The notes under the pieces were generated by a model. The model saw only the letters and a list, made by a program, of their open reading frames with translations, had not been told where the DNA came from and did not search any database. This document shows positions 22,455 to 64,000 of a DNA stretch of 64,000 nucleotides, one piece after another. The stretch's first letter is position 1; each line of letters begins with the position of its first letter. The translations under genes were made by a program, and so were the position numbers. Source of the DNA: an uncultured Methanobrevibacter sp. (GTDB taxonomy: Archaea > Methanobacteriota > Methanobacteria > Methanobacteriales > Methanobacteriaceae); NCBI RefSeq assembly GCF_947169325.1, contig NZ_CAMVPN010000001.1, positions 80,089-144,088 of the forward strand. Direction: 5' to 3'.

Positions 22455-22530
22455 ATGAATAAAAAGCAGATATTTATTGTGCTGTGCTTGTTCATAATAT
22501 CCCTTTCAGCAGTTTCAGCTGTATCAGCAA
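22455..22530 (+). other. Signal peptide, gene 3
   Basis: MNKKQIFIVLCLFIISLSAVSAVSA. Confidence 0.85.
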
Positions 22531-35803: not shown

Positions 35804-35878
35804 ATGAATTGGCAAAGAATCTTAATATTTTGTTTAATATTATGCATTGTCTGCTCAGTTTCTACGGTTTCTGCCGTT
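35804..35878 (+). other. Signal peptide, gene 4
   Basis: MNWQRILIFCLILCIVCSVSTVSA. Confidence 0.85.
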
Positions 35879-44800: not shown

Positions 44801-47800
44801 AATTCAATTGCAGTGGTTTACAATGGGGACATCAACTTCACTTCATCCAAAAACTCCACTAAATTCCCGATTGCCAAAAATCCAGCTCTTGTAAATGTGA
44901 CTGCAACAAACGAGACTTACGGCAAGGATTCAACAATAACTGTAAAAGTTCCTACAGCCCAAAAAGGCTATGTGACAATAACAGTCAATGACACTCTTAT
45001 AAACACAACAGTTAAAATTGAAAATGGTGAAGCCAAATTTGATGTTGGAGACTTAGGAGTCGGCAGATACATCGTCAATGTAACTTACCTTGGTGATGAT
45101 TCACACACAACCGAGAAGAACTTCACTTACTTCAACATTACAAAAGCAACATTAACACCGGTCATTATTGCTCAAAACGTTACAGTCGAAGAGAATGCAA
45201 GCTTTGTAATATCCGTAAACGATGATTTCAAAGGTAAGGTCAAAATCAGCGTAATTGGAGGAACAACCCATTATGATGATGGCTTGCAATCCCTGATTTA
45301 CATCAACAAATTGCCAAAAGGCACATACACTGCCAATGTGACATTCTACGGTGATAACAACTACACAGATAAATCAGTATTGGTTGACTTCAACGTATCT
45401 GCAGTAGAGCCTACAATCAACGTAACAATCGCTGATGCAACATATCCTCATGATACAAACGCAATCGTTAAGGTATCCGGCTATGCAAACGGTACTGTTG
45501 AAATCAAAGTTGGAGAAAACACATACACAAGGCAAATACACAACGGTGAAGTTACAATTCCTATAACTGGTCTTGATGCAGGTCTTAAAGAGGCATCTGT
45601 AAAATTCACAAGCGCTGATGACTATAATACCAATGTAAATACAACATATAAATTCTTCATTAATCAAACAGATTCCCATATAGACATCAACGTAACTCCT
45701 GAATCCGGTTTACAATCAGGTGATGATGTAATACTCAACATTACCGTATCCTGTACAGGAGACGTAATAGTATATGTGGACGGCAAGGAAAATAAGGATG
45801 TTCTTTCAAATAACAGAATTGTTCTTAACAAAAACGACTTAAGCGTTGGAGACCACACTGTTGTTGTCTACTATCCAGGGGACACCAACTACAGAAGCTC
45901 ATCCGCTTCCCATACATTCACCGTCGGAAAACATGATTCCAAAGTAAACGTAACTGTTGATTCTACAGTTCCATACAATGAAGTTGTTGAAATTACTGTA
46001 GAAACTCCTAAAGCCCAAACAGGCTATGTGACAATCACAGTAAACAGCAGAAACTACACTGCAAAACTTAAAGACGGTGTGGCAAAGTTCAACGTCACAG
46101 GCCTGAAAGTCGACAAATACACTGTAAACGTAACCTATGAAGGAAATGAAAACTACACTGTCAAGGACAATTCAACAAAATTCGAAGTAACTCAAATCAG
46201 CTTAAAAGCAACAGTAATTGGAGTCAATGTGACCGATGCAATGAATTCAACATTCGTAATCTCCGTTCCGGATGATTATGAAGGCCAGCTCACAATCACA
46301 GTCGATGGTGAAACATACACAGGCAATGCAGATTCAATAATTCAAATGACTAAACTCACAGTCGGTGAAAAGACAGCTCATGTGGTATTTGCAGACGACA
46401 ACAACTACAAAGGCACAGCATTTGACGTGACATTCAACATAACAAAATCCGAAAATGCTCTTCCTGTAACAACTGTAGTCAACAGCACAACAGTAGTCGT
46501 TACAGTGCCTGAAAACGTAACCGGAAACGTTACTGTGGTTCTTCCAAACGGAACCAACAAGACTGTTGTCATTAAAAACGGCAGTGCAATAGTAACCCTT
46601 GAAAACATGACTCCTGGTGAAAACAACATTACTGTAATATATACTGACGGAAACAATACAATAACAACAAATGCAACCGTAACAATTCCAAAATACGATT
46701 CAGACATGAAAGTAATCGTCAGTGAAGCCAAAGCAGGAGGCAATGCAACTGTAACAGTTGAAGTTCCTGTAAATGCAACAGGTACAATAACAGTTACAAT
46801 CGACGGTAAAACCTACACAACAGACAACATTATCTCCGGTAAGGCAACAATTACAATTGAAAACCTAACTGCTGGAAACAAAACATTGATAGTTGAATAC
46901 TCAGGTAATGCAAACTACACTGCAAACTACACCTTGGCCAACTTCACAGTAGCGCCAGGCAAGGTCGAATCTGAAATCATTGTTGTTGATCATGGTAACG
47001 GCACTGTTGTTGTGGTTATTGGTGATAATGCAACCGGTAATGTGACTATCAAGGTCGGTGATAAGGAGTTCAATGCTACTGTGGTTAACGGTACTGCTAT
47101 TGTTAATGTGACCAATGTGACTCCGGGTATTCATGAGGTTGAAGTGATTTATTCAGGTGACGGCAATCATACCAATGCTACCGCTAATGCTAACATTACT
47201 GCTCCTAAGTATGACTCAGAAATCAAAGTTGAAATTACTGAGGTTAAAGCTGGTGAACCTACAACAGTAACAGTTTATGTGCCAGTAAACGCAACAGGTA
47301 CTGTGACAGTGACAATTGACGGTAAAACTTACGCTACTGACAACATTACTGATGGTAAAGCGGTAATCACAACCGATAACCTGACTGCTGGACCAAAAAC
47401 CGTAATTGTGGAATACTCCGGTGATGGAAACTATTCAGCTAACTACACAGTTGAAAACTTCACTGTTGCAGGAGGCAAGGTTGAATCTGAAATCATTGTT
47501 GTTGATCATGGTAATGGCACTGTTGTTGTGGTTATTGGTGATAATGCGACCGGTAATGTGACTATTAAAGTCGGTGATAAGGAGTTCAATGCTACTGTGG
47601 TTAACGGTACTGCTGTCGTTAATGTCGATAATGTGACTCCGGGTATTCATGAGGTTGAAGTGATTTATTCAGGTGACGGCAATCATACCAATGCTACCGC
47701 TAATGCTAACATTACTGCTCCTAGGTATGATTCACAGATGAACGTTACTGTTGGTGAAGCCAAAGAGGGTGAGCCTATTGTAATTACTGTTGAAGTTCCT

Positions 47801-50773
47801 GTTGGTGCTACCGGTGAGGTCATTGTTAATGTTGGTGGTGAAAACCATACCGGAACAATCGATCCTGTAACAGGCAAGGCTATTGTAACAGTTGATAATG
47901 TTTCAGCGGGCAATCATACAATCGCTGTTGAATATGCGGGTGACGGCAACTACTCAGCCAACTACACAATCTCCAATATGGTTGTTGAGAAAGCCAAAGT
48001 CGAATCAGACCTTACTGTTGTTGATCATGGTAACGGCACTGTTGTTGTGGTTATTGGTGATAATGCGACCGGTAATGTGACTATCAAGGTCGGTGATAAT
48101 GAGTTCAATGCTACTGTGGTTAACGGTACTGCTGTCGTTAATGTCGATAATGTGACTCCGGGTATTCATGAGGTTGAAGTGATTTATTCAGGTGACGGCA
48201 ATCATACCAATGCTACCGCTAATGCTAACATTACTGCTCCTAGGTATGATTCACAGATGAACGTTACTGTTGGTGAAGCCAAAGAGGGTGAGCCTATTGT
48301 AATTACTGTTGAAGTTCCTGTTGGTGCTACCGGTGAGGTCATTGTTAATGTTGGTGGTGAAAACCATACCGGAACAATCGATCAGGTAACAGGAAAAGCA
48401 ATTGTAACAGTCGATAATGTCTCACCAGGCAATCACACAATCGCTGTTGAATATGCAGGTGACGGCAACTACTCAGCCAACTACACAATCTCAAACATTA
48501 CAGTTGAAAAGGCAAAGGAAATCTCAGAAATTACCGTGGTTGACCATGGAAACGGCACTGTAGTGATAGTCGTTGGAGATAACGCTACAGGTAATATCAC
48601 TGTTAAAGTAGGGGATAAGGAATACAATGCCACTGTCATAAACGGAACAGCAGTAATCACATTGGACAATGTCACTCCTGGAGACCATGAAATTGAAATA
48701 GTCTATTCAGGTGACGGCAAACATAGCAATGCAACTGCAAACTCAACAATAAACGTTTCAAATGTCAAAACATCAACACAAGTTGAAGTTTCAAACATCA
48801 ATGTTGGCGAAAAGGCAATCGTTAAAGTGACAGTTGACCCTAAAGCCACAGGAGAAATCACAATTGAAATCGACGGTGTGAAATACACAAAAGAGGTAAG
48901 AAACGGCGCCGCAACATTCGAAGTTGAAAACCTCACTGCAGGTGAAAAATCAGTATTTGCTCTATTCAACGGAGGCGAGGACTATCGCGAAAGCTATGCT
49001 TCAGCACAGTTCAACGTGTCCAAAGTCAAAACATCATTCAATGTCACAGTCAATGATGTCCATGTCGGTGAAAACGTAACCGTTACAATAACCCTTCCGG
49101 ATGACGCAACAGGACAAATCCTCATTGACATTGACGGCATCGGATACTATGCAAATGTAACTGACGGTGTGGCAACCGCCTACATCCCATATCTGCCAAG
49201 CGGAACATATGACGTGAACATGACCTACAGCGGTGATGAGAAATACGTATTGGGTTCAAACAGGACTTCCGTCAAAGTCCAGAAACTCGAATCATTCGTA
49301 ATTCCGCAGGCAGTAAACATCAAGGTCGGTGAAAACGAAATCATCAAGCTGTTCGTCCCTAAAGATGCAACCGGAAATGTCACACTAGTGATTGACACAG
49401 AAGAGTACACATTCTCCCTTCCTAACGGTGCATTGGGAACCGCATATGTTGAAGGTGAAAAATACACAGTTGCAGTAAGCGGAGGAAACGGTGAAATAAC
49501 AATTTCAGGTCTTCCTAAAGGAGAATACTTCGTAAGCGTCAAATACAATGGAAATCACAAGTACCTGCCGTCAACAAACTCCACAATATTTACTGTATCA
49601 AAAATTGATACAAAAATGGATGTGATTGATGAGGGCAACGGAACAGTCAAAGTGATCCTGCCTGATGATGCAACCGGAAACGTTACTGTCAGTGTGGACA
49701 ACAGAACCTACACTGCAGCTGTTGAAAACGGAACAGCAACAATCACATTGAATGAGACTACTCCGGGAGTCCATGACGTTGAGGTGAAATACTCCGGTGA
49801 CAATGATTATTCAAGCAAGACATCTAACGCAACAGTTGACATTCCAAAATATGAAACTCCGATTTCAGTTTCAGCCGATGACATCTATGTAGATGATGTT
49901 GCTGTCGTTACAGTAACAGTTCCGGATGACGCAACCGGTGATGTTACAATTGAAATCAACGGTGTTGAATATTCCTCAAAAATCAGTGATGGAAAAGCAA
50001 TCTTCAATGTTGAAGGCCTTGCATTTGGAAACAAGACAGTTGCAGTGACATATCATGGCGACAAAAACTATCTTGAAAACTTCACCACCGGACAGTTTGA
50101 AGTGATGAAAAGACCTTCTACGGTCAGTGCAGTTTCCAAAAACATCAAAGCAGGTAAAAATGAGGTAATCGTCGCATCTCTTCCAAGTGATGCAACAGGT
50201 CAGGTACTGGTAAGAATCAACGGCATCGGCTATTACGGAACTGTTGAAAACGGTAAGGCCAATGTGATTGTTCCAAACCTCAAGTCTGGAAGCTACACAG
50301 CAGAAGTAACCTATGAAGGTGATGAAAAGTACCTGTCAAGCAACACTACAACATCATTCAAGGTAAGTCCGTCTTCAACTCCAATTTCCGCTTTCGGCGA
50401 TGAGATTGATGTGGGTGAAGATGCTGTTGTTGTAATTGACCTTCCAAGCGATGCAACAGGAACAGTGACAATCAGGATTGACGGAAAAACACTAACAACT
50501 GACGTGAGTGACGGCAGAGCAGTATTTGTGATTCCAGGTTTAAGTGAAGGAATCTATATTGTAAATGTCTACTACTCAGGTGATGTCAATTATCCTGCAA
50601 ACGAAACAGTGACCCATGTCATTGTAAATGATAATCATGACAGAAACGATACAAACATTTCAGCACATGCTGGAGTGGAACTGTCAGGTTATCCAACAGG
50701 AAATCCGATATTGATTGCATTATTGGCAATGCTGTCAATCGGATCTGTGCGCTTTAGAAGATTTAGAAAATAA
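35804..50773 (+). CDS. Giant adhesin-like surface protein (4989 aa): signal peptide, two consecutive beta-helix regions, Ig-like domain array, C-terminal anchor
   Basis: ORF 35804..50773. GGAG at ~35790. Signal peptide MNWQRILIFCLILCIVCSVSTVSA. Ends TGNPILIALLAMLSIGSVRFRRFRK*. Confidence 0.95.
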   Translation: MNWQRILIFCLILCIVCSVSTVSAVDTSADDANDTLTTSKGEVVGVGNELSLGSSPNVEVLATGGGSFKDLNDLINDPNLASNPTIDLPQNYTYDNSKDGDYKKGIFFTKAMTIDGHGYAIDGNNLARIFGIGTRFANNQITHPGTDGPVTLKNIIFVNAFSNEGNQNEGFGAIEFYGDANAQSTLLLENCTFLNNRAPCAAALSMGYSYNNLVNITNCTFEGNTATVIGGGAIRLRNNVNNLKITDTLFKSNKALASDSGAIHLASGGVGTLIKNCTFESNNAYTMAGALSCSVEGLKIDNCSFISNSATQTNTGRAGAVYISGRNALINNSRFIDNYATFSSNAYGGGAIEIGSAALNTTINYCNFTGNHAEKSHGGAISSQNGRDITINNTRFEENYAASGGALFFENPTNLMMFNNTFKKNYVVGQFGGAIHFNSKSENVHLLNSSFISNTATKSNAGRGGAIRFDGSENGFKYFYIYNVDFIDNHARDEGGAFSHNQKGLYFYFENCTFINCTTEKRTNAWGGGMYFNAYDSSLKNITFINCSSQSGGSMSIKWSVGCKFENITIINSSASAYGGAVMIWDKDSVFANATIINTTCDSYGGAIAVSANYGSSPARVTLTDINITNSKAQYGGAIYLNGDYSNLNNINITKSSAINGGGIIVHSSENTFTKIRFNDSIATSNGGAMYINSDHQTIRNATFEGCNATNCGGAVYIGNYIYIYVHDSIFNNSYAYNGGAFYYAGSLGTVVSIHNSTFTNNNASHNGGAVYYVVVDDTGSDNKVIYRDYNNFDGEGDNSTGRTTLTMRSSAGSTYAKRIDDCYFKNNNDYKFTMAASSATDTVLGIVTISSPQDPNSRSFRVVVNITQGNRLVTQLILSTPLDYQNYFRPAEKRFIISTRENLTKDTEYNVSVGFEDNTYLYKEAKSSFKTANVFAYGDFKILQRLINEAIAGNGIVTLERDYIFTAAEDWGTMVNFPDDWCMNITSSITINGQGNSIDALGYSRIFNITGANVVINNVKLVNGNTSGIYNDAILHQGKTKAYGDGIQKGGAIFWAGENGVLNNTDVLDNFAEYGAGIFYNSTASNCKIANSSFSNNRATKSGGAIECNATKMNLTNTIFESNYAQNGSALCRESGATGGFGYNNTFIRNQAEIAGAALAWMKAENIYINNYTFIDNTAGFSGGAIYVGEDSTNCTVAYSRFSGNNVTSSSNGHGGAIEWYADTGNVINSTFVNNNAPTGGAIYVGGASGHINITQSGFLRNHAILSGGAIDLVASSVTVNNSYFRENTASNGGAIFVGGTGENNFINASYFTDNNATNGRGGAINWNASAGQIYDTNFTRNHADYGGAVYIGGSSDNSKIVNVRFTKNNATYNGGAIDWNATGGKLYNTTFISNYAGEYGAALCRESGATGGGGKNNTFISNHAGIAGAALGWINVNKISIDNYTFIDNTADRSGGAIYIGAGSDNCNIINCTFRGNNVTNLTGGHGGAVDIVADNATIKNSNFTNNNAFYGGAVFVGSASGNTNITNVTFTRNNANVDGGAINLQASGVRLNDTRFHSNNALRNGGALYVGGEGTTNVIYNSTFEDNRAENNGGAVYWRAHAGHIAYSNFTNWNTAINGGAIYLNGVSSNTNITHVIFRNNYAYKNGGAIDCNSTRMNLSYTLFESNWADEYGAALCREKGATSGFGEYNNFTSNYAGIAGAALAWLDVENININHYRFTDNIANQNGGAIYASVGSNNFTVNNCVFTGNNVTNDTAGHGGAIDIDSDNNTIKNSNFTNNNAFDGGALHIGSASGHTNITNVIFTKNGALNDGGAINLDASGVRLNDTKFYNNTAVKNGGALYVGGVGTTNTINNTLFDNNKAGSRGGAIDWLAKKGEITYSNFTRNSAESGGAIFLNGQSSESVLSHLIFENNAATKNGGAIDCNATLVNLTHTKFASNTAEFGGALCRESGAKGGFGVNNTFDKNHATKSGAALAWLGVENIKINNYTFTNNTADYSGGAIFVGPGSDNCQVHNCTFDENYISNAISGRGGAIDWIGNNGTVKNTTFNKCISINAGAIYVDEKSDNFTVKNSTFTECNSLTNGGALVLNGDNVTVYNSTFISCSGNDYGGAIAGFTSNNGNITDCYFKYNTVGIRISPQGVYYGEGGAIYWENSKNLTVKDSRFKSNAAHLSGGSISANNCSDSVVCNITTQDETAFRNGGSVAWLNSNNVTIKNSTFNDSGANYNGGSLYMAGVNATIKDTLVNYTWASWGRGGGLYVDGNVTLNNVTFNDTHGDEDNATAIYFKSGISNILNSKFANSFNSIGIAPKANVTIKGTNLTADDPNKTLKYLEDNSTVGVEKTKYAIWNDGELYLEKNNFDYVIFNNGTITSKTYLDVLYNQTWNVTWNETFTFRANITDDNNNSIISVKSLKTWNNHDMGGTFNMSYNQRKLNTYFQDVFIIYGSDAGLANCVNRSGTIRVKMPVYLSLTADATNPDHVVITATLTPQYKSNHTITDKFVYFKLGSLTFSGPISSQYPKNWTISRSQWELANLAAGTHMVTAEFKEDDYHLGVENWTTFDVHFRESWIRVAIANINYGETATALITTNSNATVNFTFHGRNIVIPVTMTKNPTTGYYEGRVDTTVAEYITTGLHDVDVVLAENEYYAFNTNRTSFEVRKLNTTVGATRIAVIQVGDKQVITVTVHDTYAPKNPTGFVNIAIGGETHYKKLDANGQATLNIYDLAKGEYNNYEVEYEGDGIFNGNSTKVSFRVDGDDDYNITVKVNDVKLGENATIYIVLPISVTNNLTVFVNNTKYENVTVKDGLAIVNVNTTVLNNPGRYVVNVTYPGDSVYALKQNNGNKFNVTATDDWTLNLNVVSRPYGENTVFTVTLPGNVATKMVNLTVDGEYHPVSINNAGVGTLTLNNLSGGLHSVVANYTGDARYVTKTNSTKFLVERAASTVTLTQNANGDVIATVLPTNVTGTVTFFVNERNYTVNLVRNVATLNRNNLTIGNNSIAVVYNGDINFTSSKNSTKFPIAKNPALVNVTATNETYGKDSTITVKVPTAQKGYVTITVNDTLINTTVKIENGEAKFDVGDLGVGRYIVNVTYLGDDSHTTEKNFTYFNITKATLTPVIIAQNVTVEENASFVISVNDDFKGKVKISVIGGTTHYDDGLQSLIYINKLPKGTYTANVTFYGDNNYTDKSVLVDFNVSAVEPTINVTIADATYPHDTNAIVKVSGYANGTVEIKVGENTYTRQIHNGEVTIPITGLDAGLKEASVKFTSADDYNTNVNTTYKFFINQTDSHIDINVTPESGLQSGDDVILNITVSCTGDVIVYVDGKENKDVLSNNRIVLNKNDLSVGDHTVVVYYPGDTNYRSSSASHTFTVGKHDSKVNVTVDSTVPYNEVVEITVETPKAQTGYVTITVNSRNYTAKLKDGVAKFNVTGLKVDKYTVNVTYEGNENYTVKDNSTKFEVTQISLKATVIGVNVTDAMNSTFVISVPDDYEGQLTITVDGETYTGNADSIIQMTKLTVGEKTAHVVFADDNNYKGTAFDVTFNITKSENALPVTTVVNSTTVVVTVPENVTGNVTVVLPNGTNKTVVIKNGSAIVTLENMTPGENNITVIYTDGNNTITTNATVTIPKYDSDMKVIVSEAKAGGNATVTVEVPVNATGTITVTIDGKTYTTDNIISGKATITIENLTAGNKTLIVEYSGNANYTANYTLANFTVAPGKVESEIIVVDHGNGTVVVVIGDNATGNVTIKVGDKEFNATVVNGTAIVNVTNVTPGIHEVEVIYSGDGNHTNATANANITAPKYDSEIKVEITEVKAGEPTTVTVYVPVNATGTVTVTIDGKTYATDNITDGKAVITTDNLTAGPKTVIVEYSGDGNYSANYTVENFTVAGGKVESEIIVVDHGNGTVVVVIGDNATGNVTIKVGDKEFNATVVNGTAVVNVDNVTPGIHEVEVIYSGDGNHTNATANANITAPRYDSQMNVTVGEAKEGEPIVITVEVPVGATGEVIVNVGGENHTGTIDPVTGKAIVTVDNVSAGNHTIAVEYAGDGNYSANYTISNMVVEKAKVESDLTVVDHGNGTVVVVIGDNATGNVTIKVGDNEFNATVVNGTAVVNVDNVTPGIHEVEVIYSGDGNHTNATANANITAPRYDSQMNVTVGEAKEGEPIVITVEVPVGATGEVIVNVGGENHTGTIDQVTGKAIVTVDNVSPGNHTIAVEYAGDGNYSANYTISNITVEKAKEISEITVVDHGNGTVVIVVGDNATGNITVKVGDKEYNATVINGTAVITLDNVTPGDHEIEIVYSGDGKHSNATANSTINVSNVKTSTQVEVSNINVGEKAIVKVTVDPKATGEITIEIDGVKYTKEVRNGAATFEVENLTAGEKSVFALFNGGEDYRESYASAQFNVSKVKTSFNVTVNDVHVGENVTVTITLPDDATGQILIDIDGIGYYANVTDGVATAYIPYLPSGTYDVNMTYSGDEKYVLGSNRTSVKVQKLESFVIPQAVNIKVGENEIIKLFVPKDATGNVTLVIDTEEYTFSLPNGALGTAYVEGEKYTVAVSGGNGEITISGLPKGEYFVSVKYNGNHKYLPSTNSTIFTVSKIDTKMDVIDEGNGTVKVILPDDATGNVTVSVDNRTYTAAVENGTATITLNETTPGVHDVEVKYSGDNDYSSKTSNATVDIPKYETPISVSADDIYVDDVAVVTVTVPDDATGDVTIEINGVEYSSKISDGKAIFNVEGLAFGNKTVAVTYHGDKNYLENFTTGQFEVMKRPSTVSAVSKNIKAGKNEVIVASLPSDATGQVLVRINGIGYYGTVENGKANVIVPNLKSGSYTAEVTYEGDEKYLSSNTTTSFKVSPSSTPISAFGDEIDVGEDAVVVIDLPSDATGTVTIRIDGKTLTTDVSDGRAVFVIPGLSEGIYIVNVYYSGDVNYPANETVTHVIVNDNHDRNDTNISAHAGVELSGYPTGNPILIALLAMLSIGSVRFRRFRK
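36000..42650 (+). repeat. Gene 4 Pmp/beta-helix repeat regions (two helices, second starting ~38600)
   Basis: GGAI/FxxN repeats interrupted at ~38162-38900 by a non-repeat segment and a second N-cap-like motif. Confidence 0.88.
43500..50600 (+). repeat. Gene 4 Ig-like domain array
   Basis: Tandem ATG.V.I.(I/V)(D/G)...Y...GDxNY...F.V units. Confidence 0.88.
46978..48760 (+). repeat. Near-identical 516-519 bp tandem repeats in gene 4 (3 close copies plus a diverged fourth)
   Basis: tgttgttgtggttattggtga at 47005, 47521 and 48040; diverged copy tgtagtgatagtcgttgga at 48559. Long stretches of copies 2 and 3 look identical (e.g. ~47608-47862 vs ~48127-48381). Confidence 0.92.
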
Positions 50774-51735: not shown

Positions 51736-51810
51736 ATGAATAGAAAAGAGATATTGACAATAATATTATTAATATGTGTTATTTTCTCACTGCAGGCAGT
51801 AACTGCTGCT
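51736..51810 (+). other. Signal peptide, gene 5
   Basis: MNRKEILTIILLICVIFSLQAVTAA. Confidence 0.85.
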
Positions 51811-54800
51811 GACAGTGGATCAAATAGCACTGACGGTAATGTCTTGTCAGTTGATAATAATGTCTCTGCATACACTCTCCCAGATTCTGAATCTAATGAC
51901 TTGTTGGGGTACGATAATGCAGTTTCATTTGATCAACTGAAAAAAGACCTTGATAAAACCGGAGATATAACTCTGGATAAGAACTATACGTATTTAGATT
52001 CAGATATAGCTAGCGTAGGCAATAAAGGAATTACTTTAACTGGTACTAAAACCATCAACGGTAATGGTAATGTAATCATTGATGCGAATCAGATGTCTAG
52101 AATATTCGTTATTGTACCAGGCGCTAATATAACATTGAAAGGAATTACATTTGTTAATGGTAATGCTACTGCTTTACCAGATGGTACTGCAACAGGTCAT
52201 GGAGGGTCTATATTAGCAAATGGTGAAATCCATATTGACAATTGTAATTTCCAAGATAACACTGCTACATACGGTAATGGGGGTAGTGTATTCATCAAAG
52301 GCAGTGGCAGTACTATTACCAATTCTTACTTCAAGGGTAATCGTGCTATCAATAATGGTAAAGATAGTATTGGTCCAGGTGGTGCATTATTCATAGTTGA
52401 TGCTAATAATGTCAAGATTAGCCATTCAATATTTGAATATAACTATGCTGGTTTGAATGGTGGTGCTATTGCAAGTAAAGATGGTATCACTAACTGTACT
52501 ATTATCAATTGTACTTTTGAGCATAACACTGCTAATGGTTCTGCTGGTGCAGTGGGTATGCAAAGTTCTAATTTTAAAATGTATAACTCTACCTTCAAGC
52601 ATAATGAAGCTAGAGGACTATTTAATAAGACAGGTACTACACCTTACTATCCTGGTAATGGTGGTGGAATAGTAGTCAGAGCACATAACAGTTATGTATA
52701 TAATACTACTTTCATCAACAATACTGCTGCACTTTATGGTGGTGCATCATTCTTATCAAATACTACTGCTGATCCTACCAATAACAATACTAAGTATGAG
52801 CTTTGTACCTTCATTAACAATACTGCCAGTGTTAATGGTGGTGCGCTATATTGGGTTAAAGGTGCTCATTATGGTTATGTACTTAACTCAACATTTACCA
52901 ACAATACTGCTGGCCGTAGTGGTGGAGCTGTATACTGGTTCGGTACTACTGGTACTATCAAGCATTCCAACTTTACCAACAATACTGCTTTAGGTATCGT
53001 AGAGGATAAGGACTCTTATGGTAACCTTACATATGGCGGTAATGGTGGAGCTGTCATGTGGGTAGGTTCAAATGGTACAGTATATAACTGTACATTCACT
53101 ACTAACAATGCTACTAATAAAGGTGGTGCTGTATACCTGCAAGGTAGCAGTGGAGGTCTTTGTAATAATACTAAGTTTGATACATGTACATTTACCGGTA
53201 ATATTGCTGGTGTAAATGGTGGTGCTATTGATTGGTATCGTGGTGCTAGAAATGGTCATATCCTAAATTCTGTATTTGAGGATAATATTGCTAATAGGTC
53301 TGGTGGTGCTGTATTCTGGTCTGGTATTGGTGGTGAAATCAAATATTCCAACTTTACTAACAATAAGGCATTAGGTATTAAGGAAGCTAATGATACTTAT
53401 GGTAATATGACCTATGGTGGTTATGGTGGTGCTGTAATGTGGACAGGTCCTAACGGTACTATAGACAATTGTAGATTTATTACTAATGAAGCCCACTATA
53501 ATGCTGCTGTAAATCAAGGTGGTCGTGGTGGTGCAGTATACCTGCAAGGCAGTGCTACTGATAACTGTACCAATGCTACATTTAGTAACTGTAACTTTAC
53601 AAGTAATATTGCAGGTACTAATGGTGGTGCTATTGATTGGCACACTGGTGCGCATGATGGTAAGATTACTCATTCCACATTTGAGTACAATGTTGCAAAA
53701 TCGAATGGTGGTGCTGTATACTGGAGAGGTCACCATGGTGACATATTTTATTCCAACTTCACCAACAATAGGGCTGAAGGTGAACACCCTGGTAGTTATG
53801 GTAATATTGGTGATGGTGGTGCAGTCTTCTGGGCAGGTATTAACGGTACTGTAGATCAATGCAGATTCATCGAAAATGAAGCTGTCAAAAATCCTAATTA
53901 TGTTAACGGTGGTCGTGGTGGAGCAGTATATATTGAAAATTGTTCACATGGTAATAAGAATACTACATTCCACAACGTTTACTTTGAAAGTAATATTGCA
54001 GGTACTAATGGTGGTGCTATTGACTGGCACGAAGGTGCGGAAGACGGTATGATAGAAAACGGTATTTTCATAAACAACACTGCTCAACGTAATGGTGGTG
54101 CAATCTTCTGGTACGGACACAATGGTATAATCAAAAATTCAAGATTCACCAACAACAGGGCAACAGGTGAGCACCGTGAATATAACTTTGACATTAACAT
54201 GACTGCAGGTGATGTAATACTTGTTACTGCACGTCCGGACATACAGGATGCTAAGGTTCATAAATTGTATGTAGTAAACCAAACTATTACAAAAACCACT
54301 TACACTTCAGAATATTACATAATTGTAGTAAATTCATCAACTGGTATACATGAATGGAAGCAAATTAGTGAAAGTGAAGCGGCTTCTCAATATGATTTAA
54401 CATTGCCTCAAGGTAATGTTACCAACTGCACTGAATTGCCATCCAATTCAAGTGCTGAATTAAATAGATTATATATTCTCAACATTACAACTACAAATAA
54501 AATCGCTCACTTTGAGTCTTGGGTCGCATTCATCAATTCATCTAATAAAAAACAATGGAAACAATTGGATGAGATTGACATTCCAGTATCTGAATCAATC
54601 ATTTCTCCTGTAGATTGGGCAATAGACCAATACTACGGTGGTGACGGTGGAACTATCCTTTGGAGTGGAGACATTGGTTACATATATAACTGTACTTTCA
54701 CAGATTCCAATTCCGCTCGTCGTGGTGGTGCAGCATACATGACTGGAAGTGACTACGTAACATACGATTCATGTAATTTCACTAACTGTACTTCAGGTAC

Positions 54801-57800
54801 CAATGGTGGGGGAGTAGACTGGTTGGCAGGAGCTAACTACGGTAAGATTTACAACTGTGTATTCAATCAAACAAGGGCTGCCCGTTCAGCGGGTGCAATC
54901 TATTATGACGGTTGGTATGGTGACCTTCAAAACATCACAATCATAGGTACCAAAGCATGGGGTGGATCCCTTGACAACAGCAGTGACGGTAGAGTAAAAT
55001 ATGCCGGTTGGGACTCAAGCCACTGGGATACAAATACCACTGGTGGTGACGCCGGTGCAATCATGTTTACCGGTTCAAACATTAAAGTTTATAACATTAC
55101 ATTCACAGACTGTATCGCTACAGGTCGTGGAGGAGCAGTCTTTTTACAAGATAATAAAAACGTAACATTTGATTTATGTGAATTCAGAAATAACCAGGCA
55201 TTAGGTACTGCCAACAACACATGGAATGATGATAAAAATCTAAGCAGTGGTAAGAACAGGTTCCTGTCAGGTAACGGTGGTGCTATCGGTTTCGATAACG
55301 GTGCTACATTAGGAGTTATCAAGAACTCCAAATTCATAAACAACACCGCTCAACGTATGGGTGGTGCAATCAGTTTTGCCAAAGGTTCATCAAATGCAAC
55401 CATAATCAATTCAACATTTGACAACAACACCGCTAAACGTAACGGTGGAGCTGTATCTGTTGATGGTTTAAATGCTAGATTTGAAGATTGTGATTTCACA
55501 AACAACTCAGCAACCGCTGAAGACCTTGACAGAAGCATATTTGACTTAACCAGTTTAAGCAAAATTAGAAATGTAACTACTGAAAATGCGATAGTTAATA
55601 AAACTGCACTCCCTACCCCTAGTGCAGATACATTAGGATATCTATATGTTATTGTGCAAATGAACGCTGGTAAGAAGATTAGTTACACCATGGCAATAAC
55701 TGTAGGTAGTGCCACTAGTGGATATGACTGGTCACTAATGAAAAACACTACCGAAACAGGCCCATCCCCTGTAGACTGGGCAACTGACGAATACTTATGT
55801 GGAGATGGAGGAACCATCTTCTGGAGAGGAGACAATGGTATTGCTAATAACTGTAACTTTATAGAATCCAACTCCAATCGTCGTGGTGGTGCAGCATACA
55901 TGACAGGATCAGACAACATAACATTCTCCAACTGTAACTTCACTAACTGTACTTCAGGTACCAACGGTGGAGGTGTAGACTGGTTGGCAGGTGCAAACTA
56001 CGGTAGGGTAATCAACTGTACATTCAATAATACTAGAGCTGCCCGTTCAGCAGGTGCTATCTACTACGATGGTGATTACGGTCAAATGATAAATATCACA
56101 ATTATTAATGCTACTTCATATGGTGGCACTCTACCTGCAAGTAGAGACGGTAGAGTAAAATATGCCGGTTGGGATGCAAGTCACTGGGATAGAAATACCA
56201 CTGGTGGAGATGCCGGTGCTATAATGTTTACTGGAAACCACGAATACATCTATAACGCTACCTTCATAAACTGTACAACTGAAGGCCGTGGAGGAGCAGT
56301 GTTCTTGCAGGACAACACCAATGTTACATTCGAATTATGTAAATTTGAACATAACTATGCAAAAGGTACTGCAAGCAACACCTGGGAATCAAAAATTACA
56401 CAAAATTCCACTGAAGACCTTGAAGATTTAACAGGTCACGGTGGTGCAATTGCATTTGATGTAAATGCTACAAACTGTAAAATCTTATCCTCCAACTTCA
56501 CAGACAACCTTGCTCGCCGTAATGGTGGTGCAATCAACTTCGATAAAGGTTCCACTAACAACACAATCAGGGACTGCAGATTCGACAACAACACAGTTTA
56601 CGATGACGGTGGTGCAATCAACTACGACCGTGGTGCAGATTACTGTTCAATTTATAATTCAATATTCTATAACAACACAGGTTTAGGCAGATTCAATTCC
56701 TCAACTAGAGGGGGTACAATCTGTCTTGTCGGTTCAAACATTACAATTTCCGACTCTCAATTCATTTTAGGAAGATCATATGCAAATACCACTGAAGGTG
56801 CAAATATCAGCAAAACAGATGGTGGTGCAATATTCCTGGCCGGTGATGATGTAAACATTACCAACACCCTGTTTGACAGATGTTCCGCTCCGAATAATGC
56901 TGGTGCAATCGAAATAGTCGGGGACCGCGCTACACTTACCAACTGTACTTTTGAAAAATGTAATGCTACCGAAGACGGTGGAGCATTATATGTACAGGGA
57001 TTGAACTGTGAAATATACAATTCCACTTTCAGACACAACACTGCCGGAGACGATGGTGGTGCAATTAACTGGAAAGGTGACAACGGTTATGTATATAACA
57101 TTACATGTTTCAACAACCACGGAATAAGCTTCAACGGTTCACACTCAAACGGTGGTACAATTTCCCTTAACGGTAATAATGTTACAATCACAAAATCCAG
57201 TTTCACCCAATCCGGTGCTTTAATCGCTGGTGGTGCAATCTTTGCTACCGGTAACAATGTTACCATTTCAGAATCCTACTTTGAAAGAAACAACGTTTCC
57301 CATACTGTAGTGGAAGAGGGCAAAGCATATACCACTGGTGGAGGTTCAATTTATGTATTCGGTAATAATTCAGATATAATAAATTGTACTTTCGATATGG
57401 CCAACGGTAAAGAAGGTGGAATTATTTATGTCCAAGGTCATAATGTGACAATTAATAATATTTCCACTAAACGTAGCTATGCTGTTGCAGGAGGAGCAAT
57501 GTATATCGCAGGTGAAAACGCTACTATCCTGAAATCCAACATTACAATGGCTAACTCCACAACTTCATCAGGTGGTGCAATATATATTCAAGGTGCAAAT
57601 GCAAACATTTCAGAGTCTTACTTTGGTAGGTGTGTTGGTGGTAAGGATATTTCCAGTACTCGTTTAGTTGATGGTGGAGCCATATATGTGAACGGTACTA
57701 ATGCTACAATTTCAAAATCAGTTTTCGAAATGAATAATGTTTCCCAAGCTGGGGGATCTATTTTTGTACGTGGTAACAATACCAAGATTTTAGATTCTAA

Positions 57801-60800
57801 TTTCACAAAATCTCATGCTACTATTGGAGGAATTATTTATGTTGAAGGACCTAATGCCGTAATTAACGGTTCATCATTCAGTATGAGTTCAGTAGTTACT
57901 AGTGGTGGTGCAATCTATGTAAATGGTACTAATGCAACTATTGAAAAATCATCATTTAAATTGAATAATGCTACAAACAATGGTGGTGCTATCGATGTTG
58001 AAGGTGATTTAGCAGAGATTAAAGACTGTAACTTCACAATCGACATTGTGTTAACCGGAGACGGTGGTGCAATTTACATTGGTGGTAAAAATACTGTAAT
58101 TTCAGGCATTAACTCAAATATCACTCGTTCAAGTAATGGTTATGGTGGATCCATTTATGTTGAGGGTAAAAACACTATCATCAATCAATCTAATTTCGAT
58201 TCTTCCAACTCTAAAAAGGAAGGTGGTGCAATTTATATTAAAGGGGACGATTCAAAAGTAATTGACTCCAATTTCACACGCACCTCAAATACCAATGGTG
58301 GAGCAATATATATTGAAGCTAAGAATGCTGTCGTTTCAGGCTCCAACTTCAACATGAACAATGCTTCCAATATGGGTGGAGCAATTTATATTTATGGTGA
58401 ACATGCATCTATTATTAATTCAACATTTAATAAGACTTATGCTATTTCCGGCTCCAAGTATATTAAGGATGTGAACCATGGAGGCGCAATATATATTAAA
58501 GGTATTTATGCTAATATTTCAGGATCTAAATTTGAAAATTATGGTTCATATAAAGGTGGAGCAATTTACTTAGAAGGTAATTATGGTAATGTTGAAAATT
58601 CTTCCTTTGATAATGGTTATTCCGCTTCAGATGGTGGCGCTATTTTCTCCACTGGATCATATTCTATGGTTAAATATTCAAACTTTACAAATAATTATGC
58701 ATATTATAATGGAGGGGCTCTTTACTGGTTCGGTGCAACAAAGAATAGTGTTGTGGGTTGTATATTCATAAACAACACTGCTTGTGGATATGGTGATCAA
58801 GGTACTAAAGGTGGAGGGGCCGTTTACTGGTCAGAAAAAGGATCTTATGGTGTTATCAGAGATTCCAAATTCATAAATAATTCTGTGATTGCTACTAAGG
58901 ATAAGGCTGACGGTGGTGCGGTTTTATGGGATACAAATAAACATTGTATACTTGACAACTGTACTTTTGATTCAAATTATGTTACAAGTACAATGACTAC
59001 TTGGACTCAGGGCGGAGCTGTTTACATGAGATCCAATAATGTTACAATTAGTAGGTGTACATTTGAGAATTGCTGGTCTCAAAAGGATAGTGGTGCGCTA
59101 TATATAGCTAACGATAAAAATACTAATGTGTTCCTGTCTCCTATTGATGTTCATGTGTTTAATTGTACTTTTATAAATAACAGTGCTAAAGGTGAATATA
59201 ACTCAGCTGATTATGACTGTGGTGGGGGTGCCGTATTAGTTAAACAAGTTGGTAATATTTACTTTACTGATGTTAGGTTTATAAACAATACTGCAGATAA
59301 AGGTGGAGCAGTATCCATGATTAGACCTAGTAAAAATGATAATAATTACTTTAGAAATTGTACTTTTATAGGCAATAATGCTACAGAAAATGGTGGAAGC
59401 ATATGGTCAGGTTCTTATACCGGTGCAAATCCTATAACTCTTAGGTTGTATAATGTTACAATTTCTGATGGTAACGCCTCTTTGGGTGGAGGAATATACA
59501 CTCTTGGTAATATTGTATACGATAATTTAACTTTCATAAATAATAATGCAACAAGTGGTGGAGCATTATATTGGGATAAAGCCTCTGTAACAATTAGTGA
59601 CATGGTATTTATAAATAACAATGCAACTAATGGTGGGGCTATTTATATTCCTAAAGAGAGTACTACAGTTAAAAATTGTAATTTCACAAATAACAATGCA
59701 ACTAATGGTGGTGCAATTTATGTTGGCGCAAATAGTGTTACAATTACCAAAAATAATTTCACAAACAACTCTGCTAAAGAGATGGGTGGTGCAATATATA
59801 CTAATACTTCAGTTAGTGGAGGAAAAATAACATATTCAAATTTCACTCTAAATCATGCTAAGTATGGTGGTGCAATCTATGCTGGATCTGCTGGTTCTGG
59901 TAGTGCACATATTACTATTTCATATTCTACTTTCATCAAAAACGTTGCTAACAGTGATGGTGGGGCAATCTATGTTGCAAATCCATATTATGATATTAAT
60001 TCTTGTAACTTTGATGGAAATAATGCATCAGGAAATGGTGGGGCTGTTTATGTTAAAGATGATTTATCAACAACTATTAAGGATTCCACATTTAAAAATT
60101 CATATGCTGGTAAAGATGGAGGTGCAGTATATCACAATGGTTCATCTTTAACTCTTACAATTAATCATGATGATTTTATTAATAACACTGCTCGTTATAA
60201 TGGTGGAGCTATTTTATATGTAACTGCTGCTAAGAAATATAGAGATTATAATAACTTCGATAACCTTGGACAGACCACCTCAGCAGGAAGAACCAATGTT
60301 ATTGATTCAGGAGTTCAGTTCATTAAAAATTCTTTATTTGAAAACAATAATGATTATCCATTGATTGTTCAAGCGATTCCAAATACTTTGGTTCCAACCA
60401 TTAGAGTTATTTTAAATCGTCCAAAAGATTCAAGACCTGAAACTAAAATTAATTGGGTTGTTAATTTAACTAATGCAACTGATAATACGTTTATAAGACA
60501 AATAGTCGTAAATTCAACTACCTATTATGACCATTATAATGCAGTTTATGACTATGTATACGTGAATTTTGAAGGTTTGATGGATGAGCAAACCTATAGG
60601 ATTAATGTCGGATTTAATGATACAAATTATATGTATAAAGAAAATTACACAACTGCAACTGCTGAGGGCAGTCTAATCGGTGAATTCAAACTTCTTCAAA
60701 AACAAATTATGGGCAATATCACCGAACAATCACAATCTCCAGGTGATGTATATGTGGTGTATTTAGAGGATTCATATACATTTACTAGGTGGGAAGATAT

Positions 60801-63800
60801 TCCATATGCAAAATCTGATGACAGTTGTATGAACATTACCTCTCTTGATAGGCCATTAATAATTTATGGTAATGGTTGGGCTCTTGATGCAAAAGGATAT
60901 TCAAGAATATTTAACATCACTGGTTCCAATGTTACTTTTGTTAATGTAAGATTTGTTAATGGTAATGCAAGCGGCAAATATAATGATGGAGTATATAATG
61001 GAGGAGCCATTTACTGGTCCGGTGCAAATGGTGCTGTAAATAATTGTTCCTTTGTTGATAATTATGCTGAAAGGGGTGGAGCATTATATCTAAATGAATC
61101 CGCTTCAAATTATAAGATTTCAGACTGTAAATTCAGACAAAATGATGCAGATACCTTCGGTGGTGCTATCGATTGTTATGCTCCAAAAATGAATCTTACC
61201 AATACTTTATTCGATAAAAACACTGCCGATACCGGTGCCGCTTTATGTAGGGAAATAACCGCTACAGGTGGATTCGGAAACTATAATAATTTCACTTCAA
61301 ATAGGGCTAAAACCAATGGATCAGCTCTTGCTTGGATAAGTGCAGAAAGTATTAACATTAATCATTACATTTTCATTGATAATGTTGCAGGCAATAGTGG
61401 TGGAGCCATCTATGTAGGTAAAGGCAGTGGTAACTGTGTAGTTAATAATTCTTACTTCCAGGGAAATAATGTAACTAATGAATATGGTGTGCTTACAGGT
61501 CATGGTGGTGCTATTGAATGGTATGCTGGTAACGGTACAGTTTTAAATTCCACATTCATTGACAACCATGCGCATGATGGGGGTGCAATTTATGTAGGTC
61601 ACGGTTCAGAAGAAATCAACATATCAGAATCCACTTTCCGCATAAACACTGCAGGCACTAAAGGAGGTGCTGTCAGTATTGAAGCATCCAAAGTTACCAT
61701 TAATGCATCTGATTTCTATGATAATAATGCTACTTATGGTGGTGCATTGTATGTAGGTGGTGCAGGCAATCTTAATTATGTATACTCATCTGTTTTCGAA
61801 GGAAATAAAGCTAAAGATGGTGTTGGTGGAGCGATTTATTGGGAAGCTTCCTCAAGTTATATTTATGACTCTAACATAACTAGCAATTGCGCCGATTATG
61901 GTGGAGGTTTATACTTGGGCGGTGATTCCGCTGAAAGTACAATTCTAAATTGTAGTTTCACAGATAACCATGCTAAGTTCACAGGTGGTGCTATTGATTG
62001 TAATGCCTCTAAAATGTATTTATCCAACACTACCTTCGATTCCAATTACGCTCAATTCGGTTCCGCTTTATGTAGGGAAGTTAATGCAAAAGGAGGTTCC
62101 GGTGCAAACAACACTTTCATAAATAACCATGCATATGTTGCAGGTGCCGCTCTTGGATGGATGGGTTCAGTAAATATTACAATTACAAATTACACATTTA
62201 TCAATAACTCTGCTGAGGTATGTGGTGGAGCAATTTATGTAAGTCGATCCAGTCATAACTGTTCAATTATTACTTCAAACTTTGAAAATAACTATGTAAC
62301 TAATGCAACATCCACTTGGGATGGTAATAAATTCTATTGGACAGCATGGGATGGCGAACTTATGAGTTTCAGTCTTGTAGTAACTACCGATACTTCACTG
62401 ATTAATACAACTGTGATTGGTGTGGATACTGTATTCTATAGTTCTAGTGAGGAAGCAGGTAAAGAGAATATGGGTGTTGGTGGAGCTGTCAGTTGTCTTG
62501 CAGCCAACGCTACAATTACAGGATCCAACTTCACAAATAACACTGCAAATAAAGGTGGTGCATTGTATGTAGGTTCTTATGAAGGACATACAAATATTAA
62601 TCGTTCAGTATTCACATCCAACATTGCTTATGAAATAGGTGGAGCTATCAACTTACATGCTTCAGGAGTACACATTGATGACTCTCAATTCTATAATAAC
62701 ACTGCTGTTAACGGTAGTGCACTGTATGTTGGTGGTGTTGGAACAGCTAATAAGGTTCATGAATCTATTTTTGAAGGAAACAATGCTACTGATCATGGTG
62801 GTGCTATCTACTGGAAAGCATATGAAGGTGAAATTATAGGAACTAACTTCACCAATAACCGTGCTATCTATGGTGGTGCTATTTACTTGAATGGCGTATC
62901 AAATAATACAAATATTATCAATTCAACATTCAAATTCAACAATGCTACCAAAAACGGTGGAGCTATGGAATGTAACGCATCCAACATTGGAATTTACAAC
63001 ATTACATTTGAATCCAACTATGCAGGTGAATATGGTGCTGCTTTATGCAGAGAAAAAGGCGCAACCAGTGGTCATGGTACCAACAACACTTTCATAGCAA
63101 ACCATGCCGGAATCGCAGGTGCAGCTCTTGCATGGATGGGTGTTGACAACATTAACATCAACTACTACTATTTCATAAACAATACTGCAAATGAAGGTGG
63201 GGCAGCAATTTATGTTTCCGATGACAGTGACAATTGTATAATCAATCATTCATCCTTCAAAGGAAATTACATAACCAATGATACTGGTGGACATGGTGGT
63301 GCAATCTATGTTGTTGGAGATAATGCTACCATTGTCAACTCCAACTTCACAGACAACCATGCATTCTATGGTGGTGCTATATTTGCAGGTAAATCCTCAG
63401 GTAATACAAACATATCAAATGTAACATTTGACGATAACTGGGCAAATGTGGATGGTGGTGCAATTGTCATTACCGGTTCCGGAGTGACTTTAAATGACAC
63501 TCGCTTCTACAATAACCTTGCCGGTGACTCTGGTGGTGCAATCTATGTGGGCGGTGAAGGTACAAGTAACGTAATCTGGTACACCGTTTTCGAAAACAAC
63601 ACTGCAAGAGATCATGGTGGTGCTATTAACTGGCTTGCATATTCCGGAGAAGTATATTACTCCAACTTTACAAACAACTCCGCTGTTTACGGTGGAGGTA
63701 TTTACTTGAACCATATTTCAAGCAGCAGTAAAATCGTCAATGTAATATTTAAAGAAAATAGGGCTACTAAAAATGGTGGTGCTATTGACTGTAATGCAAG

Positions 63801-64000
63801 TTATATGGGTCTTTTAAATACATTATTCGAATCCAACTACGCCGGTGAATATGGTGCTGCTTTATGTAGGGAAGCCGGTGCCGAACACGGTTATGGTGGA
63901 AACAACACATTCAATTCAAACTATGCAGGAATTGCAGGTGCTGCTCTTGCATGGCTTGATGTTAATGAAATAACAATCAGAAATTACACATTCTACAACA
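51736..64000 (+). CDS. Giant adhesin-like surface protein, 3'-truncated by window edge (at least ~4088 codons of signal peptide plus beta-helix)
   Basis: ATG at 51736 after GGAGGGGGTG. Translation MNRKEILTIILLICVIFSLQAVTAADSGSNSTDG. Lines begin in frame; lines 51781-52441 and 54181-54661 and other sampled lines to 64000 (ends VNEITIRNYTFYN) had no stop. Not in the ORF track because no stop lies in the window. Confidence 0.9.
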   Translation, partial: MNRKEILTIILLICVIFSLQAVTAADSGSNSTDGNVLSVDNNVSAYTLPDSESNDLLGYDNAVSFDQLKKDLDKTGDITLDKNYTYLDSDIASVGNKGITLTGTKTINGNGNVIIDANQMSRIFVIVPGANITLKGITFVNGNATALPDGTATGHGGSILANGEIHIDNCNFQDNTATYGNGGSVFIKGSGSTITNSYFKGNRAINNGKDSIGPGGALFIVDANNVKISHSIFEYNYAGLNGGAIASKDGITNCTIINCTFEHNTANGSAGAVGMQSSNFKMYNSTFKHNEARGLFNKTGTTPYYPGNGGGIVVRAHNSYVYNTTFINNTAALYGGASFLSNTTADPTNNNTKYELCTFINNTASVNGGALYWVKGAHYGYVLNSTFTNNTAGRSGGAVYWFGTTGTIKHSNFTNNTALGIVEDKDSYGNLTYGGNGGAVMWVGSNGTVYNCTFTTNNATNKGGAVYLQGSSGGLCNNTKFDTCTFTGNIAGVNGGAIDWYRGARNGHILNSVFEDNIANRSGGAVFWSGIGGEIKYSNFTNNKALGIKEANDTYGNMTYGGYGGAVMWTGPNGTIDNCRFITNEAHYNAAVNQGGRGGAVYLQGSATDNCTNATFSNCNFTSNIAGTNGGAIDWHTGAHDGKITHSTFEYNVAKSNGGAVYWRGHHGDIFYSNFTNNRAEGEHPGSYGNIGDGGAVFWAGINGTVDQCRFIENEAVKNPNYVNGGRGGAVYIENCSHGNKNTTFHNVYFESNIAGTNGGAIDWHEGAEDGMIENGIFINNTAQRNGGAIFWYGHNGIIKNSRFTNNRATGEHREYNFDINMTAGDVILVTARPDIQDAKVHKLYVVNQTITKTTYTSEYYIIVVNSSTGIHEWKQISESEAASQYDLTLPQGNVTNCTELPSNSSAELNRLYILNITTTNKIAHFESWVAFINSSNKKQWKQLDEIDIPVSESIISPVDWAIDQYYGGDGGTILWSGDIGYIYNCTFTDSNSARRGGAAYMTGSDYVTYDSCNFTNCTSGTNGGGVDWLAGANYGKIYNCVFNQTRAARSAGAIYYDGWYGDLQNITIIGTKAWGGSLDNSSDGRVKYAGWDSSHWDTNTTGGDAGAIMFTGSNIKVYNITFTDCIATGRGGAVFLQDNKNVTFDLCEFRNNQALGTANNTWNDDKNLSSGKNRFLSGNGGAIGFDNGATLGVIKNSKFINNTAQRMGGAISFAKGSSNATIINSTFDNNTAKRNGGAVSVDGLNARFEDCDFTNNSATAEDLDRSIFDLTSLSKIRNVTTENAIVNKTALPTPSADTLGYLYVIVQMNAGKKISYTMAITVGSATSGYDWSLMKNTTETGPSPVDWATDEYLCGDGGTIFWRGDNGIANNCNFIESNSNRRGGAAYMTGSDNITFSNCNFTNCTSGTNGGGVDWLAGANYGRVINCTFNNTRAARSAGAIYYDGDYGQMINITIINATSYGGTLPASRDGRVKYAGWDASHWDRNTTGGDAGAIMFTGNHEYIYNATFINCTTEGRGGAVFLQDNTNVTFELCKFEHNYAKGTASNTWESKITQNSTEDLEDLTGHGGAIAFDVNATNCKILSSNFTDNLARRNGGAINFDKGSTNNTIRDCRFDNNTVYDDGGAINYDRGADYCSIYNSIFYNNTGLGRFNSSTRGGTICLVGSNITISDSQFILGRSYANTTEGANISKTDGGAIFLAGDDVNITNTLFDRCSAPNNAGAIEIVGDRATLTNCTFEKCNATEDGGALYVQGLNCEIYNSTFRHNTAGDDGGAINWKGDNGYVYNITCFNNHGISFNGSHSNGGTISLNGNNVTITKSSFTQSGALIAGGAIFATGNNVTISESYFERNNVSHTVVEEGKAYTTGGGSIYVFGNNSDIINCTFDMANGKEGGIIYVQGHNVTINNISTKRSYAVAGGAMYIAGENATILKSNITMANSTTSSGGAIYIQGANANISESYFGRCVGGKDISSTRLVDGGAIYVNGTNATISKSVFEMNNVSQAGGSIFVRGNNTKILDSNFTKSHATIGGIIYVEGPNAVINGSSFSMSSVVTSGGAIYVNGTNATIEKSSFKLNNATNNGGAIDVEGDLAEIKDCNFTIDIVLTGDGGAIYIGGKNTVISGINSNITRSSNGYGGSIYVEGKNTIINQSNFDSSNSKKEGGAIYIKGDDSKVIDSNFTRTSNTNGGAIYIEAKNAVVSGSNFNMNNASNMGGAIYIYGEHASIINSTFNKTYAISGSKYIKDVNHGGAIYIKGIYANISGSKFENYGSYKGGAIYLEGNYGNVENSSFDNGYSASDGGAIFSTGSYSMVKYSNFTNNYAYYNGGALYWFGATKNSVVGCIFINNTACGYGDQGTKGGGAVYWSEKGSYGVIRDSKFINNSVIATKDKADGGAVLWDTNKHCILDNCTFDSNYVTSTMTTWTQGGAVYMRSNNVTISRCTFENCWSQKDSGALYIANDKNTNVFLSPIDVHVFNCTFINNSAKGEYNSADYDCGGGAVLVKQVGNIYFTDVRFINNTADKGGAVSMIRPSKNDNNYFRNCTFIGNNATENGGSIWSGSYTGANPITLRLYNVTISDGNASLGGGIYTLGNIVYDNLTFINNNATSGGALYWDKASVTISDMVFINNNATNGGAIYIPKESTTVKNCNFTNNNATNGGAIYVGANSVTITKNNFTNNSAKEMGGAIYTNTSVSGGKITYSNFTLNHAKYGGAIYAGSAGSGSAHITISYSTFIKNVANSDGGAIYVANPYYDINSCNFDGNNASGNGGAVYVKDDLSTTIKDSTFKNSYAGKDGGAVYHNGSSLTLTINHDDFINNTARYNGGAILYVTAAKKYRDYNNFDNLGQTTSAGRTNVIDSGVQFIKNSLFENNNDYPLIVQAIPNTLVPTIRVILNRPKDSRPETKINWVVNLTNATDNTFIRQIVVNSTTYYDHYNAVYDYVYVNFEGLMDEQTYRINVGFNDTNYMYKENYTTATAEGSLIGEFKLLQKQIMGNITEQSQSPGDVYVVYLEDSYTFTRWEDIPYAKSDDSCMNITSLDRPLIIYGNGWALDAKGYSRIFNITGSNVTFVNVRFVNGNASGKYNDGVYNGGAIYWSGANGAVNNCSFVDNYAERGGALYLNESASNYKISDCKFRQNDADTFGGAIDCYAPKMNLTNTLFDKNTADTGAALCREITATGGFGNYNNFTSNRAKTNGSALAWISAESININHYIFIDNVAGNSGGAIYVGKGSGNCVVNNSYFQGNNVTNEYGVLTGHGGAIEWYAGNGTVLNSTFIDNHAHDGGAIYVGHGSEEINISESTFRINTAGTKGGAVSIEASKVTINASDFYDNNATYGGALYVGGAGNLNYVYSSVFEGNKAKDGVGGAIYWEASSSYIYDSNITSNCADYGGGLYLGGDSAESTILNCSFTDNHAKFTGGAIDCNASKMYLSNTTFDSNYAQFGSALCREVNAKGGSGANNTFINNHAYVAGAALGWMGSVNITITNYTFINNSAEVCGGAIYVSRSSHNCSIITSNFENNYVTNATSTWDGNKFYWTAWDGELMSFSLVVTTDTSLINTTVIGVDTVFYSSSEEAGKENMGVGGAVSCLAANATITGSNFTNNTANKGGALYVGSYEGHTNINRSVFTSNIAYEIGGAINLHASGVHIDDSQFYNNTAVNGSALYVGGVGTANKVHESIFEGNNATDHGGAIYWKAYEGEIIGTNFTNNRAIYGGAIYLNGVSNNTNIINSTFKFNNATKNGGAMECNASNIGIYNITFESNYAGEYGAALCREKGATSGHGTNNTFIANHAGIAGAALAWMGVDNININYYYFINNTANEGGAAIYVSDDSDNCIINHSSFKGNYITNDTGGHGGAIYVVGDNATIVNSNFTDNHAFYGGAIFAGKSSGNTNISNVTFDDNWANVDGGAIVITGSGVTLNDTRFYNNLAGDSGGAIYVGGEGTSNVIWYTVFENNTARDHGGAINWLAYSGEVYYSNFTNNSAVYGGGIYLNHISSSSKIVNVIFKENRATKNGGAIDCNASYMGLLNTLFESNYAGEYGAALCREAGAEHGYGGNNTFNSNYAGIAGAALAWLDVNEITIRNYTFYN
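51960..64000 (+). repeat. Gene 5 Pmp/beta-helix repeat region
   Basis: Continuous GGA(I/V)YW / FTNNTA motifs to the window end. Confidence 0.88.
54430..56750 (+). repeat. Gene 5 internal tandem duplication, 1161-bp offset
   Basis: SPVDWA at 54604 and 55765; gacggtagagtaaaatatgccggttggga at 54985 and 56146; both differ by exactly 1161 bp. Confidence 0.9.

Follow-up and report, generated by a model that had tools for sequence, protein, structure and literature searches.

Adhesins of methanogens are thought to attach these archaea to bacteria and protozoa in the rumen and gut, and their binding parts are mostly uncharacterised. The main text of a survey of methanogen adhesin-like proteins (ALPs) catalogues them as proteins with beta-helix and Ig-like domains (PMC11532034). 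Ig-like domains are, in addition, reported to be enriched in gut archaeal viruses, present in host adhesins and thought to aid adhesion (PMC12134362). Here we analyse a giant beta-helix adhesin-like gene of an uncultured Methanobrevibacter sp., for which an earlier note, made from the sequence, had proposed that the helix is interrupted by modules resembling repeats of gut-phage tail or appendage proteins.

Module inserts in a giant adhesin-like gene

The window, by which we mean the whole 64,000-nt stretch of DNA that was analysed, is occupied almost entirely (1-64000) by giant adhesin-type genes. Their ORFs lie on one strand (open end-5527, 5733-22016, 22455-35210, 35804-50773 and 51736-end), and gene 5 is the final member of this row of giant same-strand ORFs. 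The open frame of gene 5, truncated by the contig end, comprises at least 8,968 codons. It matches Pfam Beta_helix (E = 1.8e-73) as well as Chlam_PMP repeats, and its N-terminus contains a hydrophobic, signal-peptide-like segment, as judged by reading the sequence. This N-terminus and the right-handed beta-helix repeats are features that gene 5 shares with the methanogen beta-helix adhesin-like proteins. An ortholog in genome G039 has Ig-like repeats at its C-terminal end, where no membrane segment is clearly recognisable.

In three neighbouring repeats the helix loop measures 9 to 14 aa (52996-53034, 53377-53418 and 53782-53808), whereas it extends to 155 aa at insert site 1, where it terminates in ...PVDWAIDQYY, and to 92 aa at insert site 2, where it terminates in ...PVDWATDEYL (Table 1). 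The helix is thus interrupted as had been claimed. The segments quoted for site 1 read in frame with the ORF from 51736, M1 starting at 54232 and not, one codon early, at 54229; the third region that had been named holds M3, the best match. Both sites fall within approximately the first sixth of the gene 5 protein, in blocks that are duplicated 1,161 nt apart with a nucleotide identity of 74-88%. An ortholog in another species (L080, genome G051) has a matching tandem pair M1+M2. We also observed a further non-helix insert in gene 5 at 62308-62490 (TSTWDGNKFYWTAWDGELMSFSLVVTTDTSLINTTVIGVDTVFYSSSEEAGKENMG...), which has no evident resemblance to the module.

Table 1. Features of gene 5 and its module inserts (window positions; aa, residues of gene 5)
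Feature	Position	Strand	Basis
Giant beta-helix adhesin-like gene (gene 5)	51736..64000, continues beyond window	+	Open frame, Pfam matches
Three upstream repeats with short loop, no insert	52996..53808	+	Loop lengths
Insert site 1, holds M1 + M2	54169..54633 (aa 812-966)	+	Loop length, AlphaFold2 model of region
Insert site 2, holds M3	55519..55794 (aa 1262-1353)	+	Loop length, AlphaFold2 model
Module M1, degenerate, next to M2 in tandem	54232..54369 (aa 833-878)	+	Weak alone; ortholog M1 in G051
Module M2	54430..54582 (aa 899-949)	+	Viral-only profile A5, E 1.4e-5
Module M3, clearest copy (LPTPSADTLGYLYVI...YDWSLMKN)	55603..55746 (aa 1290-1337)	+	Viral-only profile A5, E 5.8e-9
Helix block following each insert site, duplicated	54686..56385	+	Direct repeats D1, D3, D4

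AlphaFold2 modeling of the isolated M3 insert, with adhesin sequences only, gave a pLDDT of 83.5 and showed a short helix close to the LPTPSADT turn, followed by three long strands. The model of the double insert (53965-54828) consists of two successive beta meanders and a helix at PVDWAIDQYY, after which the beta-helix resumes; the M1 part of this model is of low confidence. The module would be best pictured as a beta unit of ∼50 residues in which LPTxSAxT forms a turn or a short helix and three antiparallel strands follow (...LYVL / ...YxxYVTV / ...YxWxKL).

Viral relatives of the module

A search with M3 across the archaeal family located the module in sister-species adhesins and in four short tail-fibre-like proteins (L015, L017, L018 and L024); weak matches in L020-L023 and L025-L034 were rejected as lying in unrelated frames or genes. 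Profiles were built from the four tail-fibre-like proteins (A1), adhesin modules (A2), gut-phage-type modules (A3), a larger adhesin set (A4), and viral and provirus tail modules with zero adhesin sequences (A5). Over the whole six-frame genome, A5 produced exactly two matches, to M3 and M2 (E-values in Table 1), and over 152 genomes of the phylum its matches elsewhere were only to provirus- or virus-type proteins and to this adhesin family. This genome-wide specificity is the strongest test of homology.

Profile-profile comparisons with hhalign aligned A2 with A1 (E = 4e-12, score 59.6; best of 150 column shuffles, 18.6), A2 with A3 (E = 3.4e-8, score 41.6; best shuffle, 16.8) and A4 with A5 (E = 2.3e-12; 0 of 100 shuffles as good). 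Because such pairwise E-values hold for one pair only, we gave more weight to the shuffle controls. Taken singly, M3 matched A3 (E = 1e-6), and the matches of M1 and M2 to A1 were weakly significant (E = 7e-4) and weak (E = 1.4e-3), respectively, with 0 of 60 shuffles as good in each of the three cases; M2 against A3 was at chance level. Direct tblastn of the window modules against INPHARED phages gave chance-level matches only (E = 0.5-10), and intermediate sequences were required to connect the window modules with the phage modules. No model in Pfam or NCBIfam covers the module, the PDB holds no relative when searched by sequence and by fold, and a plasmid search returned no match.

When the M3 model was compared with viral models by Foldseek, the first-ranked protein was A0A7M1RT95 of crAss-like phage cr130_1 (E = 0.011, probability 0.97, TM 0.41), with no match at E ≤ 0.001. 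At 186 aa, A0A7M1RT95 equals the length of the motif-bearing KNV59_gp50, and the protein at rank 7, of cr131_1, has 521 aa, the length of gp78, which likewise bears a module. Since Foldseek also uses letters, this result is not fully independent of sequence.

From the profile comparisons, the structure search and the genome-wide search, we conclude that the module and a domain found in tail/appendage proteins of gut viruses are homologous. The likeness to gut-phage repeats that the earlier note had drawn is therefore homology (A5 genome search; hhalign E = 2.3e-12, 0 of 100 shuffles), and the gut-phage form that it gave exists, e.g., SLPTASASTMGKIYLVAHSHSSDDGYDEYITLESGTTTKTYSWEKIGNTDIDLS in L048, among the IMG/VR contigs found by A1. 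Neither of the outcomes named beforehand as refuting (no significant match, or matches confined to adhesin families) arose.

Three of the four provirus carrier genes have tail genes as neighbours: a phrog_6 baseplate wedge in G052, and Pfam Baseplate_J in both G063 and G032. Searched with A1, IMG/VR yielded 23 virus contigs, and in a scan of 85,462 species genomes, which depends on near-exact peptide patterns, all six relatives were Methanobrevibacter records. Methanobrevibacter smithii tailed virus 1 (MSTV1) encodes the module (NSLPSTGEVGVMYLKLNT...YDEYIWVNNKFEKIGST) in XCD08700.1, a gene with tail genes on one side and the lysis enzyme, a pseudomurein endo-isopeptidase, on the other; vir080 of Methanobacteriales carries it as well. 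Pseudomurein-binding repeats are present on module-bearing contigs G051:C52, G047:C71 and G032:C4 and in the records of L045, L050, L054, L055, L058 and L060, and in 0 of 14 control genomes; virus contigs with these repeats are thereby indicated to have methanogen hosts. Peptidase C71 was dropped as a host marker, having given one sub-threshold match, and the remaining IMG/VR contigs were called methanogen-type on similarity alone. Five genomes (G047, G048, G050, G051 and G052) contain both the adhesin and a module-bearing provirus or virus-type contig.

Carriers among bacterial phages include the crAss-like phages cr130_1, cr131_1, cr56_1 and cr85_1 ('tail protein') and Streptococcus phage Javan191. 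One of the searches behind these viral carriers used a composite probe, and as this was written from the motif of the earlier note and the sequences found, its E-values serve to rank candidates only. Tested singly against A3, MSTV1, vir080 and cr130_1 gave E-values of 3e-8 to 6e-10 (0 of 50 shuffles). Among these three, cr130_1 alone had a strong direct match to the adhesin profile (E = 5.8e-6), and MSTV1 had none.

Several side observations concern these carriers. L130 (G116:C96; 40,886 bases) and L131 (G050:C120; 40,887) are identical across the 2 kb compared and are binned in genomes of two different genera, reflecting a shared virus or a binning artefact; their module-bearing fibre genes have collagen-like repeats. 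The IMG/VR contigs L044 (196 kb) and L045 (100 kb) each have several separate module-bearing genes, and these viruses thus have more than one such appendage gene. The module gene of cr130_1 (L134:2734-3294) contains in-frame TAG codons, as expected where a phage reads TAG as glutamine.

Origin and divergence of the adhesin modules

Among the 152 genomes of the phylum, cellular copies of the module were found in one adhesin family of one genus only. The orthologous helix block is present in 24 genomes, all of that one genus, and all 24 have the module in at least one site, which makes at least 24 related species that have retained it. In an unrooted tree of 76 modules (47-68 columns), all 32 adhesin modules formed one clade (100/99 with flanks), which persisted on 47 core columns without flanks (96/84). 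Because the adhesin copies form this single clade, one old transfer is indicated and not repeated exchange. Of the 'domain traffic' suggested earlier, the homology of viral and adhesin modules therefore stands, but ongoing exchange is not supported (32 of 32 adhesin modules in one clade). M1 groups with M1 of G051 (100/99), so that the tandem pair predates the split of these two species.

Taken together, these data make it probable that a viral tail-appendage module of ∼50 residues was captured once by an ancestor of the adhesin family, spliced into a loop of the beta-helix and duplicated, and that it is now a putative binding surface. Capture would have taken place in a giant adhesin ancestor belonging to a Methanobrevibacter-type genus, and a methanogen virus or provirus is the most likely donor. 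Once spliced into the loop of a beta-helix rung, the module would have been duplicated along with its block to give two sites, and a further tandem duplication in this lineage would have produced M1+M2.

Two observations on individual orthologs may be added. The single site-1 module of L078 (G052:C3) groups with M1 copies and not with M2 (99/85), a placement suggestive of copy loss, or of recombination, subsequent to the tandem duplication. Adhesin orthologs L079 (G084:C4) and L007 and L090 (both G075:C11) have a frame change or stop near the module block, which may be either real decay or assembly error.

With the tree short and unrooted, the direction of transfer is judged from breadth: virus to host is the likely direction and the more economical one, since viral copies span archaeal and bacterial viruses and cellular copies in the phylum belong to one family. 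We consider the opposite route unlikely, in which adhesins of archaea or of other cells were the first to have the module, methanogen viruses acquired it from them and gut phages received it in turn. Adhesin modules are indeed nearer to methanogen-virus than to gut-phage modules (hhalign score 59.6 versus 41.6), and the tree is unrooted, but the viral copies come from viruses of methanogens, from crAss-like phages and from a Streptococcus phage, against one adhesin family of one genus among the cellular copies in 152 genomes, and the adhesin copies constitute one clade and not a diverse base. It is distinctly unlikely that the module is a common small beta domain, as yet without a name, which occurs in surface and appendage proteins of many cellular and viral lineages, and that adhesins and viruses each obtained it, independently, from a third source. 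A wider spread would be easily missed where no Pfam or NCBIfam model exists, and our profile searches of cellular proteins covered the archaeal phylum; against this, the A1 scan of species genomes, within its near-exact patterns, gave Methanobrevibacter records only, and plasmids gave no match. That the likeness is due to chance or to composition, the segments being beta-rich and Asn/Thr-rich, is extremely improbable: M1 and M2 are weak individually and the direct tblastn matches to phages are no better than stated above, but this explanation is largely refuted by the shuffles and the genome-wide specificity of A5, and reversed-profile controls and the Foldseek match to a protein that bears the motif as well also speak against it.

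As to what the captured module does, its identity between species is 42%, compared to 72% and 83% in the flanks, and it is lower than the flanks in 171 of 171 pairs. Strand and turn positions and the flanking motif nonetheless remain recognisable. Being sited in a loop, the module is expected to project sideways from the helix, and the N-terminal part in which it lies (approximately the first sixth) is probably the outer part of the protein; the modules may offer a variable surface to which other cells, glycans or mucus bind. Fast divergence fits such a surface and would also fit a weakly constrained spacer. That the module is a tolerated loop insert which stiffens or spaces the solenoid under loose sequence constraint, with no binding, is a possibility that we take seriously while not favoring it: the divergence agrees with it, as do copies without the tryptophan or the LP turn, but the module is retained in at least one site in all 24 block-bearing genomes, and the strand pattern and flanking motif are conserved.

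Should the modules bind, a more far-reaching, and in our estimate very unlikely, idea is that a host-recognition domain of viruses was domesticated by one genus of gut methanogens, and that it recognises the same class of ligand whether it sits on a virus tail or at the surface of the archaeon; the virus-derived surface would then bind partner cells and might compete with viruses using that ligand. More immediately, a small, fast-evolving module shared with viruses and placed at a defined adhesin loop is a concrete candidate for a binding part. It also provides a case, at the sequence level, of one unnamed domain used by archaeal viruses, bacterial viruses and an archaeal host, and makes how virus tails and host adhesins acquire common parts a directly testable question.

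Comparison with known systems

A literature search covering few subscription papers gave no description of the module or of its sharing between viruses and adhesins, and an earlier notice is possible. Gene 5 resembles the ALPs described in the main text of PMC11532034 in being a giant secreted protein with right-handed beta-helix domains; a term search of that main text found no viral tail module within a helix. The sharing of Ig-like domains (PMC12134362) is similar in that a domain type occurs both on virus particles and on archaeal surface proteins, but the module differs from Ig-like domains in matching no Ig-like Pfam model.

The viral form of the module is already in a profile library, since PHROG 24103 covers the module region of viral carriers (MSTV1, vir080, L057 and L048). 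PHROG 24103 is a virus protein family without function or domain name that comprises virus proteins only, and its profile gave no match to the window modules at E up to 1. The carrier of M1-M3 is a giant cellular beta-helix adhesin and not a virion tail protein, with only the domain in common. XCD08700.1 of MSTV1 is like gene 5 in having the module and is encoded in the tail region of a virus whose host is a related methanogen; unlike in gene 5, however, its module has no beta-helix setting and is followed by tail-repeat segments (PF12789), and of the adhesin and gut-phage forms this copy is closer to the latter.
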